From contig CALVBW010000024.1 in assembly GCA_944325945.1 (NCBI GenBank), positions 1 through 32,229 on the forward strand: 32,229 nt of DNA, written 5' to 3'. This DNA comes from Candidatus Gastranaerophilales bacterium (GTDB lineage Bacteria > Cyanobacteriota > Vampirovibrionia > Gastranaerophilales > Gastranaerophilaceae). Under the pieces are notes generated by a model that saw nothing but the letters and a program-made list of their open reading frames with translations, did not search any database and was not told the origin of the DNA. Both the position numbers and the translations under genes were made by a program. This document shows, piece after piece, positions 7,197 to 25,173 of this stretch. Within the stretch, counting starts at the first letter, position 1; each line of letters starts with the position of its first letter.

Positions 7197-7353
7197 CTAT
7201 ATTTGTAACGATATGTAAACTTGATTAAAAACCTTATATCAAGGTGCATACAAGGGTATAGTTCGTTTGAATTTTTGGCGAGAAAGTCAATAATTTCTTC
7301 TAAAAATTTTTAATAGATACATAGGGGATATTAAAAACATATTGGAGGATATT

Positions 7354-9015
7354 ATGGCAACAGATGGCGTTACATTTGCTGGTGGAGAATCACCGTTGCA
7401 CAATTTGAAACTTTTAAGAAAACAACAAAGAAAAACATGGAAAAACGCTGCAAAAGCATTAAATTATGTCAATGCAAATCAAACTACAGGAATTAGTGCC
7501 CAACAGATAAATGATCTGGTCGGCATTGGAAGAGCCAGATCTTATAATCAAGTTCAATCTTATGCAAAAGAGTTTGAACAGGCATTTTTAAGACGTGATG
7601 CTTTAAATTATGTCAATGCAAATCAGACAAGAGGAATTAATGCTCAACAGATAAATGATCTGGTCGGTATTGGAAGAGCCAGATCTTATAACCAAGTTCA
7701 ATCTTATGCAAAAGAATTTGAACAGGCACTTTTAAGAAATGATGCTTTAAAAGCTGCACGAGAAGCAAGCAAACCGGTACACATAACTGCTGAACAAATA
7801 GACAGAACCCTGAGAATCGGTTCCGGTAGAACACCCCAGCAGTTGGAAGCCTATGCAAAAGAATTTGAACAGGCACTTTTAAGAAATGATGCTTTAAAAG
7901 CTGCACGAGAAGCAAGCAAACCGGTACACATAACTGCCGAACAAATAGACAGAACTCTGAGAATCGGTTCCGGTAGAACACCCCAGCAGTTGGAAGCTTA
8001 TGCAAAAGAATTCAAACAGGCATTAGGAACTAAGGGTGGCAAATTTGGTACATTAGGCAACTTCTTTAAAGGTGCAAAAGGTAAATATGCGATTGCAGGT
8101 GCTGCGGCAGCACTTCTTATTGGCGGCGGAATAGCTCTGTTTGGCGGGAAAAAAGATAAAGAAGAAGCTGTTCCTGAAAAAACTGATGGTATTGTTATAC
8201 CTGAAATTAAAGAACCGGACAAAACAGTGCCCGTAGATGAACAACCGGAGGCAAAACCGGATGATGCACCGACTGCTGATGTAATTAAACCGGCTGACGG
8301 TTCCGGAATTCCTGCAGGTGTTGTTCCTGATGATGAAGAACCTGAGGTAAAACCGGAAAAAGATACTCCTGCGGCTGTTCCTGAGGATAAAAAACCTGAG
8401 GTAAAACCGGAAGAAGATACTCCTGCGGCTGTTCCTGAGGATGAAAAACCTGAGGTAAAACCGGAAAAAGATACTCCTGCAGCTGTTCCTGAGGATGAAA
8501 AACCTGAGGTAAAACCGGAAGAAGATACGCCTGCGGCTGTTCCTGAGGATGAAGAACCTGAGGCAGAACCGGAAGTTCCGACTGCTGAACCATCAAATGA
8601 AAATGCAGCTATTATTGGCTCACTACAGGATCAAATTCGTGCAAATAAGGCAGAAAATAAAGAATTACGTAACGAAATAAAAGAAATTCGCAAAGCAGAA
8701 CGTAAAGAACGACAAGCGGAAAGATTAGCGGAATTTCAGGCAGAACAGGAAGCACGAAAAGAACAATGGGCACAAATACAGGCAGAAAGAGCCATTAAAC
8801 GTGCAGAAAGAACTGCAAGAAATAGAATAAAACGTGCAGAACGTCAGGCTAAATTTGAAGAAGCACAAGCATTAAGACAGGCACAGGCTGCGGAACAAAG
8901 AGCAATAAATGCAGAAATACGTGCAATTAGACAGGAAGCACAAAAAGAAATACGTAGAATTCGTTTAGAAACCAGAAAAGACGTTTTGGAATATAAACTT
9001 GAACAAATCGCATAG
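7354..9015 (+). CDS. Lineage-specific repeat protein with one membrane helix and coiled coil
   Basis: I do not recognise a family. From the ATG at 7354, which has GGAGG five bases upstream, the 553-residue protein has five parts. Residues 1-34 contain VTFAGG at 6-11. Four tandem repeats of about 48 residues follow at 35-224, in two pairs. Each ends in a Q-x-x-S/A-Y-A-K-E-F-x-Q-A segment and holds a helical A-Q-Q-I or A-E-Q-I element. One hydrophobic helix lies at about 245-263. An acidic Pro/Glu/Lys-rich stalk follows at about 270-410, with 18-residue repeats. The last part, 415-553, is a highly charged Arg/Lys/Glu coiled coil. The domain order suggests a membrane-anchored scaffold with a spacer and a long helical rod. 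No signal peptide is seen. Function is unknown. Confidence 0.85.
   Translation: MATDGVTFAGGESPLHNLKLLRKQQRKTWKNAAKALNYVNANQTTGISAQQINDLVGIGRARSYNQVQSYAKEFEQAFLRRDALNYVNANQTRGINAQQINDLVGIGRARSYNQVQSYAKEFEQALLRNDALKAAREASKPVHITAEQIDRTLRIGSGRTPQQLEAYAKEFEQALLRNDALKAAREASKPVHITAEQIDRTLRIGSGRTPQQLEAYAKEFKQALGTKGGKFGTLGNFFKGAKGKYAIAGAAAALLIGGGIALFGGKKDKEEAVPEKTDGIVIPEIKEPDKTVPVDEQPEAKPDDAPTADVIKPADGSGIPAGVVPDDEEPEVKPEKDTPAAVPEDKKPEVKPEEDTPAAVPEDEKPEVKPEKDTPAAVPEDEKPEVKPEEDTPAAVPEDEEPEAEPEVPTAEPSNENAAIIGSLQDQIRANKAENKELRNEIKEIRKAERKERQAERLAEFQAEQEARKEQWAQIQAERAIKRAERTARNRIKRAERQAKFEEAQALRQAQAAEQRAINAEIRAIRQEAQKEIRRIRLETRKDVLEYKLEQIA
7456..8026 (+). repeat. Four tandem coding repeats of about 144-147 bp
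   Basis: Units begin near 7456, 7600, 7744 and 7891. Units 1 and 2 are nearly identical to each other. Units 3 and 4 are also nearly identical, and share the C-terminal A-K-E-F-x-Q-A part with 1 and 2. The pairs look like two recent duplications on top of an older one. All units keep the reading frame. Confidence 0.9.
8341..8571 (+). repeat. 54-bp tandem repeats encoding a Pro-Glu-Val-Lys stalk
   Basis: Unit starts at 8341, 8395, 8449 and 8503 give an exact 54-bp period, with a decayed fifth at 8557. Each encodes 18 residues (P-E-V-K-P-E-x-D-T-P-A-A-V-P-E-D-x-K). Copies differ at only a few bases, so unit number probably varies between strains. Confidence 0.92.
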
Positions 9016-21916: not shown

Positions 21917-22531
21917 ATGTCAAATACTCTTGCATACTTATTAGACGGCAAAATTTATATAAATTTAACCAACAGATGTACAAATTCCTGTATTTTTTGT
22001 CTCAGAAACGACAAAGACGATGTTTGCGGCAAAAATATGTGGCTTGACAGCGAAAATTTCACGGCACAAGATGTGATTGAACAAATTGAAGAGCTGCCGC
22101 TGTCCGCAGAAATCACCTTCTGCGGATATGGTGAACCCTTATTAAAACTTGATATATTAAAAGAAGTTGCAGAATATATTAAAGAAAAGCACCCTGATAT
22201 TAAACTGCGCATCAACACAAACGGTCACGCAAATTTTGTTTATAAAAGGAATATATGCGAAGAATTAAAAGGCTTGATAGATACAATTTCCGTAAGCTTA
22301 AACGGCGCGACAGAAGAAGAATATAATGAACTGTCCAAACCCTCATTCAAAGGTGCTTACGATGAAGTTAAAAAATTCATAAAAGCCTCATCAGATGCAG
22401 GAATTAAAACAATTGCAACAATTGTAGAAGGTTACAAAGGCAGACATCTGGATATAGAAGCCTGCGAAAATATTGCAAAAGAACTCGGCGCAACACTCAG
22501 GGTTCGCGAATGGATAGAAAACGGATACTAA
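21917..22531 (+). CDS. Radical SAM protein, TatD-associated type
   Basis: The 204-residue protein carries the [4Fe-4S]/SAM motif as CTNSCIFC (Cys21, Cys25, Cys28) and a SAM-contact GYGEPLL near 75. It also has the INTNGH strand typical of radical SAM barrels. It is short, with no C-terminal accessory cluster domain. It resembles the small family that is often encoded beside or fused to TatD nuclease, here without TatD. The reaction is unknown. ATG is preceded by GAAGGGATG, a moderate ribosome site. It is followed by the inverted-repeat cassette, which starts four bases after the stop. Confidence 0.85.
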   Translation: MSNTLAYLLDGKIYINLTNRCTNSCIFCLRNDKDDVCGKNMWLDSENFTAQDVIEQIEELPLSAEITFCGYGEPLLKLDILKEVAEYIKEKHPDIKLRINTNGHANFVYKRNICEELKGLIDTISVSLNGATEEEYNELSKPSFKGAYDEVKKFIKASSDAGIKTIATIVEGYKGRHLDIEACENIAKELGATLRVREWIENGY

Positions 22532-22534
22532 TAG

Positions 22535-22559
22535 AAGTTACTAAGATACTAAGGCACTA
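22535..22559 (+). repeat. Left arm of 25-bp inverted repeat
   Basis: Exactly complementary to 22953-22977. Further ACTAAG motifs follow inside, to about 22569, and match the opposite side imperfectly. Confidence 0.95.
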
Positions 22560-22583
22560 GGGCACTAAGACAAAGGATAAAAG

Positions 22584-22955
22584 ATGTATTACAAAGATAT
22601 GGAAGTTTGGAAAGAATCTATAAAGCTTGTAACTGATATCTATAAAATTACAGAAACATATCCTCAATCCGAACTTTTTGGATTAACAAATCAAATAAGA
22701 AGATCTGTTATTTCTATTCCTTCAAACATTGCAGAAGGCTCTGTAAAACATTCGGACAAAGAATCTTTAAGATTTTTGGATATTGCTCTGGGCTCCTTAG
22801 CTGAACTGGATACTCAAATGCTTATATCCCAAAATCTTAATTTTATAAATAATTATGATACTATAGAACAACAAATTTCTAAGGTTAGAGCTTTGCTAAT
22901 CGGACTTGCAAAATATTACGAAAAACAACTTAATGATAAGAACTTAGTAACTTAG
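22584..22955 (+). CDS. Four-helix-bundle protein (S23 / 23S rRNA IVS family)
   Basis: The 123-residue protein has the family pattern: YKDMEVWKESIKLVTDIYKIT, then LTNQIRRSVISIPSNIAEG near 40-58. ESLRFLDIALGSLAELDTQ comes next, then two more helices. Structures of relatives are pentameric helical bundles with a basic surface; the family also includes Avd of diversity-generating retroelements. Biochemical role is unknown, nucleic-acid binding is likely. ATG is preceded by AAAGGA. The stop codon lies inside the right arm of the inverted repeat, so gene and arms form one compact unit. No reverse transcriptase or variable repeat is visible. Confidence 0.92.
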   Translation: MYYKDMEVWKESIKLVTDIYKITETYPQSELFGLTNQIRRSVISIPSNIAEGSVKHSDKESLRFLDIALGSLAELDTQMLISQNLNFINNYDTIEQQISKVRALLIGLAKYYEKQLNDKNLVT

Positions 22956-22977
22956 TGCCTTAGTATCTTAGTAACTT
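22953..22977 (-). repeat. Right arm of 25-bp inverted repeat
   Basis: Reverse complement of 22535-22559 without mismatch. It includes the stop codon of the four-helix-bundle gene. Confidence 0.95.
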
Positions 22978-23016
22978 TGATATATAATATAAATGTATAA
23001 AAGAAAGGACTAAACA

Positions 23017-25173
23017 ATGAACAGCAATTTAGACAAAATCATGAAACCGAAATCAATAGCGGTTATCGGTGCGTCAACAAAAGAACACACAATCGGTTCC
23101 GACTTGATGAAAAGATTACAGGAATACAACTTCAACGGAAAAATTTATCCGGTAAACCCGAAAGGCGGGATAATTGAAGGATTGCAGGCTTACACCTCCG
23201 TTTTGGAAATTCCCGGAGAAGTTGACCTTGCAATTATAGTCGTAAATGCAAAATTTGTTTTATCAACAATTGACCAATGCCACGAAAAAGGTATCAAAGG
23301 TCTTTGTATAATCACGGCAGGCTTTAAAGAAACCGGCGCAGAAGGTGCAGAAGCCGAAAAACAATTGCTGGCAAAAGTCAGAGAATACGGCATGAGATGC
23401 GTAGGTCCGAACTGCCTCGGCGTTGTAAACACTCACCCTGATATCAGAATGGACGGATGTTTCGCAGAATCTTTACCTGAACGCGGAAACATCGGTTTTG
23501 TATCTCAATCCGGTGCTTTGGGCGGCGGTATCTTGAATATATTAAAAGACTTGAATTTAGGTTTTGCTCAATTCATATCAATTGGCAATCAGGCCGATGT
23601 TAATGCTGAAACAGCTATGGAATACTGGGAAAATGAAGACGACGTTGAACAAATTCTTCTTTATATGGAATCTATTCAAAATCCGTCTAACTTCAGAAAC
23701 TTAGCATCAAGAATTTCTAAGAAAAAACCGATTCTGGCATTAAAAGCAGGAAGATCAGCAGCCGGTGCATCAGCTGCATCTTCACACACAGGCTCTTTAG
23801 CAGGTGCTGATAAAGCTGCAAATGCTCTTTTGCAGCAATCCGGCGTTATAAGAGAATACTCTTTGAAAAACCTTTTTGCAACAGCAAAAGTTTTTGCTAA
23901 CTGCCCGATTCCGAAAGGTGACAGAGTAGCTATTATTACTAACTCAGGCGGTCCCGGAATTATGGCAACCGATGCGGTTTGCGAATACGGTATGCAAATG
24001 GCTAAAATTTCTGACGCGACAAAAGAAAAATTGAGAAGCTTTCTGCCATCTGCCGCATCCGTTAAAAACCCTATCGACATGATTGCATCAGCACCTATTG
24101 AACACTATAAACAAACTCTTGAAACGGTTATTGCTGATGAAAATGTTGATATGATTATGGTAATTTACCTGCCGTTCTTAGGTTTGAAAGATATTGACGT
24201 TGCAAAAGCTGTTATGGAAATCAAAGAACAGTATCCGCACAAACCTGTTATCGGCGTATTTATGACTAAGAACGAATTCTTTACAAAACTTTCAGATATG
24301 AAAGTTAATATGCCATTCTTTATGTACGCAGAAGAAGCTGCTGACGGATTCAACAGATTAAATCAACAAAGACTCTGGATGGAAAGACCGCAGGGCAAAG
24401 TTCCATGCTACGATGTTGATAAAGCCAAAGTTGAAAAAATCATTAAATCAGCGCTTTCTGAAGGTAGAGATCAATTAACAACTCTGGAATCAATTGATGT
24501 TTTACAAGCATACGGAATCAGAGCTTGCAAATACGGTCTTGCAACTAACGAAGAAGAAGTCGTAACACTTGGCAACTCAATCGGATACCCTGTTGTTATG
24601 AAAATGACTTCTAAAACAACATCACACAAAACCGATGTCGGCGGTGTTAGAGTAAATATTCAATCAGAAGAACAACTCCGCGCAGAATACAAAGACCTTA
24701 TTGAAAAATTAACCGAAAAAGGACTTATTGAAGGACTTGAAGGCGTAATTATTCAGGAAATGGTAAAAGGCAACCGCGAAATGGTTTGCGGTATTGCAAC
24801 AGACCCGCAATACGGTCCTATGATGATGTTCGGTCTGGGCGGTGTGTTTGTTGAAGCTTTGAAAGATGTAACCTTCAGAATTGCTCCTTTGACAGATCAG
24901 GATGCAAAAGAAATGGTTAAATCAGTTAAAGCATACAAATTACTTCAAGGTGCAAGAGGAACAAAACCCGCTGATATGGATCAAATTGAAGAAACTCTTC
25001 TTCGTTTGTCACAACTGGTTAATGACTTCAAATTCATTGACGAACTTGATATTAACCCGTTGTTAATCAGTGAAAAAACAGGCGAAGGCATTGCAGTTGA
25101 CGGCAGAATTAAGGTCAGAATGAAAGAAGCTAAAGAAGCTCTGGCTTGTGAATGCGCTGCTTGCTCTTGCTAA
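23017..25173 (+). CDS. Acetyl/acyl-CoA synthetase (ADP-forming), fused alpha and beta subunits
   Basis: This enzyme converts an acyl-CoA, ADP and phosphate to acid, CoA and ATP, giving substrate-level ATP during fermentation. The 718-residue protein has a CoA-binding Rossmann domain at about 8-135 (IAVIGAS). Two succinyl-CoA-ligase-like domains follow, with the phosphorylated histidine His257 in SSHTGSLAG, then NSGGPGIMATD. An ATP-grasp domain occupies about 485-705, with PVVMKMTSKTTSHKTDVGGV, IIQEMVKGNREMVCG and MMFGLGGVFVEAL. The tail ends in a cysteine-rich CECAACSC, four Cys in eight residues, which is not a usual family feature. Start is ATG with AAAGGA upstream. Terminator follows. Confidence 0.93.
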   Translation: MNSNLDKIMKPKSIAVIGASTKEHTIGSDLMKRLQEYNFNGKIYPVNPKGGIIEGLQAYTSVLEIPGEVDLAIIVVNAKFVLSTIDQCHEKGIKGLCIITAGFKETGAEGAEAEKQLLAKVREYGMRCVGPNCLGVVNTHPDIRMDGCFAESLPERGNIGFVSQSGALGGGILNILKDLNLGFAQFISIGNQADVNAETAMEYWENEDDVEQILLYMESIQNPSNFRNLASRISKKKPILALKAGRSAAGASAASSHTGSLAGADKAANALLQQSGVIREYSLKNLFATAKVFANCPIPKGDRVAIITNSGGPGIMATDAVCEYGMQMAKISDATKEKLRSFLPSAASVKNPIDMIASAPIEHYKQTLETVIADENVDMIMVIYLPFLGLKDIDVAKAVMEIKEQYPHKPVIGVFMTKNEFFTKLSDMKVNMPFFMYAEEAADGFNRLNQQRLWMERPQGKVPCYDVDKAKVEKIIKSALSEGRDQLTTLESIDVLQAYGIRACKYGLATNEEEVVTLGNSIGYPVVMKMTSKTTSHKTDVGGVRVNIQSEEQLRAEYKDLIEKLTEKGLIEGLEGVIIQEMVKGNREMVCGIATDPQYGPMMMFGLGGVFVEALKDVTFRIAPLTDQDAKEMVKSVKAYKLLQGARGTKPADMDQIEETLLRLSQLVNDFKFIDELDINPLLISEKTGEGIAVDGRIKVRMKEAKEALACECAACSC

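Follow-up and report, generated by a model that had tools for sequence, protein, structure and literature searches.

The 443-bp unit at positions 22535–22977 of a 32,229-nucleotide stretch of DNA from Candidatus Gastranaerophilales bacterium (contig CALVBW010000024.1, positions 1–32,229; this whole stretch is called the window below) lies between genes for a radical SAM protein and an acyl-CoA synthetase-like protein, and consists of a gene for the S23 or 23S rRNA intervening sequence protein (IVP) enclosed by two inverted arms. Comparison with other genomes makes it probable, at moderate confidence, that the unit belongs to a widespread family of small mobile cassettes. In this family, an S23/IVP gene is held within inverted arrays of 7–8-nt repeats, and the whole sits between the stop codon of one operon gene and the ribosome-binding site of the gene that follows; such an element would be of the same type as the intervening sequences (IVSs) of rRNA, living in mRNA operons. 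The small mobile element that a first-pass annotation, made from the letters of the window, had proposed as one possibility is supported by empty sites in close relatives, by a junction that holds different cassettes, by how little the element has diverged and by further copies of its arms. The picture which that annotation had named beforehand as speaking against it, a unit conserved everywhere with no empty sites and no other copies, is not what was found. In what follows, G000 is the window's own genome (1.63 Mb in 32 contigs), other G numbers are genomes of relatives and L numbers are individual loci.

The S23 gene and its inverted arms

The left arm (22535–22569, + strand) is made of tandem 8-nt units of the form xxACTAAG (TTACTAAG ATACTAAG GCACTAGG GCACTAAG) and has other copies in the genome; the right arm (22943–22977, + strand), delimited by inverted-repeat comparison, is its inverted copy and is built of the same kind of unit. 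Each arm is 35 nt long and the two are 91% complementary, with perfect pairing of the outermost 25 bp. The perfect 25-bp inverted repeat initially described is thus real as the outer part of longer arms, and what had been taken for ACTAAG heptamers are octamers. The RNA of positions 22500–23000 is predicted to fold at -120.8 kcal/mol (z-score -5.35), a value equalled by none of 100 shuffled sequences; this z-score and the recurrence of arms across loci (see below) led us to reject a chance repeat.

S23 is the only gene between the arms. Its open reading frame (ORF; 22584–22955, + strand, 123 amino acids) runs on the same strand as both neighbours, is preceded by AAAGG at 22572–22576 (+ strand), from its sequence the likely ribosome-binding site, and ends with a TAG (22953–22955) inside the right arm, so that the compact unit with its stop codon in the right arm stands as first annotated. 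The protein belongs to a four-helix-bundle family and matches PF05635 (E 1.4e-34, 118.9 bits for a cut-off of 33.8), TIGR02436 (117.7 bits for a cut-off of 24) and the structure PDB 2GSC (E 3.5e-24), and given the homology to the latter we take the S23 fold as fixed. Avd is a homologous four-helix-bundle family, and the window protein does match its profile NF033474 weakly, at 23.5 bits, as would be expected if the unit were part of a diversity-generating retroelement. However, this score is far under the cut-off of 80, no match to the PF00078 reverse transcriptase was found in the G000 genome (2% of which is missing), and the Avd genes of relatives in the 60-genome survey described next carry no arms. 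Unless a reverse transcriptase lies in the missing 2%, the first two results refute such a membership, to which we leave hardly any probability.

Recurrence, address and turnover of armed S23 genes

Armed S23 genes were sought in 60 genomes of the taxonomic family, in a genome collection covering 84,980 species (80 named loci from many phyla were kept) and in viral contigs, a locus being counted as armed at an inverted-arm score of at least 24. Inverted arms were present at 88 of the 118 S23 loci outside rRNA, versus 16 of the 254 control ORFs taken from the same loci (Mann-Whitney p 1.7e-34); as some of the rows are near-duplicates and the loci were selected for their similarity to a seed alignment, not too much should be made of the precise percentage. 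All intact S23 genes of the family survey that score above the Pfam cut-off are armed, each with a unit sequence of its own (the weakest case, L081, was counted from its visible repeat arrays and not by score), and the species genomes and viral contigs give the same picture. Of 75 arms, 50 repeat best at a lag of 7 or 14 nt and 22 at one of 8 nt. Unit sequences vary between loci, as does the number of repeats, and the similarity of arms grows with that of the S23 proteins (Mantel r 0.26, p 0.0005), which indicates that arms and gene travel together. Cyanobacterial plasmids, too, carry cassettes with heptamer arms, in one case antisense between genes for ribonucleotide reductase; the collection of phages gave no S23 match. 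On a Pseudanabaena plasmid (L293), the long AAAAGCY heptamer arrays that flank an S23 gene between cas6 and cas4 are direct, not inverted.

Cassettes usually begin at the stop codon of the upstream operon gene and are read in the same sense. Where a non-viral armed locus has close neighbours on either side (60 loci), the S23 gene lies in sense orientation between co-directional genes in 55 cases and antisense to both in two. The left arm begins -12 to +6 nt from the upstream stop codon in 33 of 56 cases. In viral contigs S23 is often antisense, yet the cassette tends to adjoin the stop codon of the gene that is upstream in the sense of transcription. Of 81 left arms, 43 have stop codons in each of the three sense frames; on their other strand the same arms do so in 13 of 81 cases, and shuffled sequences in 16%. 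Several junctions are occupied in more than one genus or higher group: rimP/nusA (eight loci), groES/groEL, HAD/thiolase, thiolase/acyl-CoA dehydrogenase, sdhA/sdhB and the two parts of metH, the gene names being recognised from translated ends and not by profile. In the window the upstream gene (21917–22531, + strand) encodes a TatD-associated radical SAM protein (TIGR04038) with its stop codon at 22529–22531, and the downstream gene (23017–25173, + strand), with its start at 23017, an ADP-forming acyl-CoA synthetase-like protein identified by Pfam and NCBIfam profiles. The triplet after the present radical SAM stop, 22532–22534 (+ strand), was the ancestral stop codon; it is TAA in G068 and G072 and TAG in G000. 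As this triplet is still the stop in the sister genome G068, and G000 has newly gained a TAA one codon earlier that ends reading sooner, the left arm abuts the old stop codon with zero gap.

An S23 match exists in only 5 of the 16 genomes of the genus. At the radical SAM/acyl-CoA synthetase (rSAM/ACS) junction, the cassette is present in G000 and G068 alone among congeners with a readable junction, so that the comparison of sites called for by the first-pass annotation finds close relatives empty or filled differently. G072, about 95% identical, has no cassette there but retains some of the left arm, and in G038 the end of the right arm survives. These half-arms read as an older occupation followed by deletion. 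In G065 (L097) this same junction is filled by another small ORF, about 110 codons long and lacking ACTAAG arms. The cassettes of G000 and G068 differ at 4 of 443 positions (99.1% identity), all within the ORF, whereas the flanking genes differ by 6–7%; the synonymous divergence (dS) of S23 is 0.039, against 0.264, 0.363 and 0.671 for neighbouring genes. The spread of the window's copy is hence younger than the split of the two host species. In another genus, the S23 gene most similar to that of the window (67–69% amino acid identity) is at rimP/nusA and has the same ACTAAG-type arms.

The rimP/nusA junction provides a second illustration. It is empty in six congeners, carries cassettes with AATAAG arms in G000 and G038, and holds cassettes with other arms in G062 and G060. 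Between G000 and G062 the flanks are 91–96% identical, the S23 genes 67%, and the arms are different. In G068 (L233) and G064 (L235), the site contains another small gene, presumably GIY-YIG-like, between inverted repeats GTCATTCTGAGCGAAGCGAAGAATCT that are unrelated to the S23 arms. These GIY-YIG elements resemble the S23 cassette in being one small gene within inverted repeats at the same site, but both their protein and their repeats are unrelated. The junction is a hot spot for one-gene inverted-repeat elements.

Two explanations that dispense with a mobile element have to be weighed at this point. One is that there is no dedicated mobility: hairpins would arise by slippage of short repeats and by template switching, one arm being copied into its inverse, while S23 would spread by homologous recombination of the flanks. 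The variable number of repeats fits such a process, as does the closer match between the two arms of one locus than between arms of different loci. Flank recombination is difficult to reconcile, however, with different S23 genes lying within nearly identical flanks at rimP/nusA, or with the absence of a long flank tract around the window's cassette, where divergence from G068 returns one base ahead of the left arm and 44 bases beyond the right one. We regard this explanation as unlikely. The other sees in S23 a normal member of the operon that serves the host, with arms that form a hairpin for processing or termination and so regulate the gene downstream. It would account for the sense orientation in operons, for the very stable hairpin, for vertical inheritance at some sites and for the purifying selection on S23 (dN/dS 0.045–0.165). 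It does not account for a gene so sporadic, with many empty junctions, which is found beside unrelated operons and is represented by different lineages at a single junction, and we judge it slightly less probable still.

Arms without the gene and the case against mobility

A search of G000 for further copies of the arms, recommended at the outset, found ACTAAG arms dispersed in about 65 clusters, with 0 for a reversed-pattern control. Neighbouring arms at most 600 bp apart form 14 inward inverted pairs, 0 outward pairs and 8 pairs in the same direction. The second S23 gene of G000, that between rimP and nusA, is surrounded by inverted octamer arrays with the core AATAAG, and AATAAG arms are likewise dispersed (47 sites versus 4 for the control), some as a hairpin of about 115–125 bp with a conserved core, similar to a miniature inverted-repeat transposable element (MITE). 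There are at least two arm families in G000, each comprising one S23 cassette and many gene-less hairpins, as both ACTAAG and AATAAG arms have a cassette and dispersed sites. The gene-less hairpins are probably non-autonomous or decayed relatives of the cassette. S23 genes that are internally deleted between retained repeat arms, at rimP/nusA in G066 (L242) and in G044 (L083), represent a possible route from one to the other.

Some further observations on the arms may be recorded here. The MITE-like hairpins (L269–L284), with (xxAATAAG)n arms and the core tgttatataaaaagcaatcttg..ccgctcagattaat, were seen in G000, G038, G068 and G069. On many contigs of G000 (L003–L024 and L285–L288), ACTAAG arms lie just 5′ of type IV prepilin-like genes, in frame with them (..KKAAFTLAEVLITLGIIGVVAAMTIPT), and these arm units thus appear to encode part of the prepilin leader region. 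On contig C31 of G000, at 69071–69480 (L034) and 80232–80462 (L042), same-direction ACTAAG arms recur every 90–100 bp, interspersed with other small palindromes. G070, a genome 97% complete without S23 match, has an arm family of its own, AATAAGCSAATAAGCS, with more than 130 pattern matches. Elsewhere in the window, a large ORF (7342–9015) contains tandem repeats at the protein level (AKEFEQALLRNDALKAAREASKPVHITAEQIDRTLRIGSG and EVKPE-type segments).

The existence of gene-less hairpins with a conserved core is also what one would expect if the arms were a REPIN- or MITE-like repeat whose movement depended on a Y1 (REP-associated) transposase or some other enzyme not seen here, S23 being a mere passenger caught between two of them. 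This scenario stays alive because the transposase correlates with arm-rich genomes: a Y1_Tnp gene is present in the arm-rich G068, G069, G070, G072 and G038 (and in G060, with few arms), while among arm-poor genomes it was found only in G067, and partial. Two of these arm-rich genomes, G069 and G070, have arms without S23. On the other hand, G000 is arm-rich and gave no Y1_Tnp match, and no arms of this kind flank the Y1 genes of G068 and G069; for these reasons we do not assign the unit to the REPIN/RAYT elements. Passenger status would leave unexplained why it is S23 that occurs between arms across phyla and why repeat units track the protein. On balance we find the passenger scenario rather unlikely, although it deserves to be kept in mind.

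Other points weigh against the mobile cassette that we favour. The many arms of G069 and G070, with no S23 match in either genome, mean that arms can persist or spread without S23. The half-arms of G072 and G038 show that loss as well as gain has shaped the rSAM/ACS site, and at panB/rluD and sdhA/sdhB (L178/L180) the site is common to close relatives and looks vertically inherited. At the two sites with empty counterparts, rSAM/ACS and rimP/nusA, there is no clear target-site duplication and the boundaries are inexact; for this reason, and with S23 as the sole gene between the arms, the unit is not classed as a transposon or insertion sequence. To our knowledge S23 has no catalytic activity. 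The stop-codon address may in part reflect selection for harmless places, as a short operon spacer offers little other harmless room. Finally, mobility is here read from the comparison of genomes and not from direct sight of transposition.

Relation to known elements and significance

The closest counterpart is the IVS in the 23S rRNA of Coxiella burnetii, in which heptamer repeats precede the S23 gene and which is cleaved by RNase III (PMC4990558). The unit of the window resembles it in having a sense S23 ORF, a length of about 430–440 nt, pairing ends, tandem repeats before the ORF and a sporadic distribution, so that the likeness to rRNA IVSs pointed out in the first-pass annotation is supported. 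It differs in lying between radical SAM and acyl-CoA synthetase-like genes of an operon and not in an rRNA helix, in having 8-nt repeats where Coxiella and most relatives of the cassette have heptamers, and in an S23 gene that is intact and under purifying selection, whereas that of Coxiella is decaying. The G000 assembly gave no match to 23S rRNA. Most likely, the unit works like an IVS but is not an rRNA IVS.

Certain repeats have been described without reference to S23. The GGGAATC heptamers of Xanthomonas and Nostoc often stand as convergent inverted pairs, for the most part shortly after stop codons (PMC4692102), as cassette arms do; they have been presented as repeats and G-quadruplex formers, without S23, which that paper does not mention. 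They may be the same phenomenon viewed from the repeat side. The TAACTGA repeats of Beggiatoa are heptamers with stops in all frames (PMC4679880), but as that source does not mention S23 and they have almost no inverted pairs, we do not claim them as the same thing. MITE and REPIN hairpins share with the gene-less arms the dispersal of inverted repeats without a gene and the inward pairs; the cassette arms are unlike them in being arrays of 7–8-nt units that vary between families.

As to mechanism, we may only propose a scheme. The cassette would be co-transcribed with its operon, and pairing of the arms in vivo would place the S23 message in the loop of a long hairpin, which RNase III could cut, by analogy with rRNA IVSs such as that of Coxiella, where this cleavage has been demonstrated. 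An S23 oligomer might bind the repeat hairpin and help carry the cassette to new sites. As neither a reverse transcriptase nor a Y1 transposase was matched in G000, we think it unlikely that either sort of enzyme resides there; the route we prefer is that host replication or repair enzymes would do the strand work on hairpins, assisted by S23.

The origin and function of rRNA IVSs and of S23, an element type traced back to 1990, have been called unclear (PMC4990558). In the open-access literature (subscription papers and preprints being outside its scope, and hyphenated spellings possibly missed) our searches turned up no account of S23 cassettes with arms outside rRNA. We put forward tentatively, as a possibility that we do not hold to be the likelier outcome, that these cassettes are a distinct undescribed class of self-spreading elements homing behind operon stop codons in many phyla; the rRNA IVSs would be their offshoot in rRNA, and much of what such genomes hold in intergenic heptamer repeats would be their gene-less debris. 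Hairpin cassettes may be the wider family from which ribosomal insertions come, and there is a reasonable chance that the class as a whole merits its own name. If rRNA IVSs are indeed the rRNA branch of a cassette of mRNA operons, the question of their origin becomes testable; intergenic heptamer repeats would then have a possible common origin, and there would be one more way in which operon mRNAs are split.
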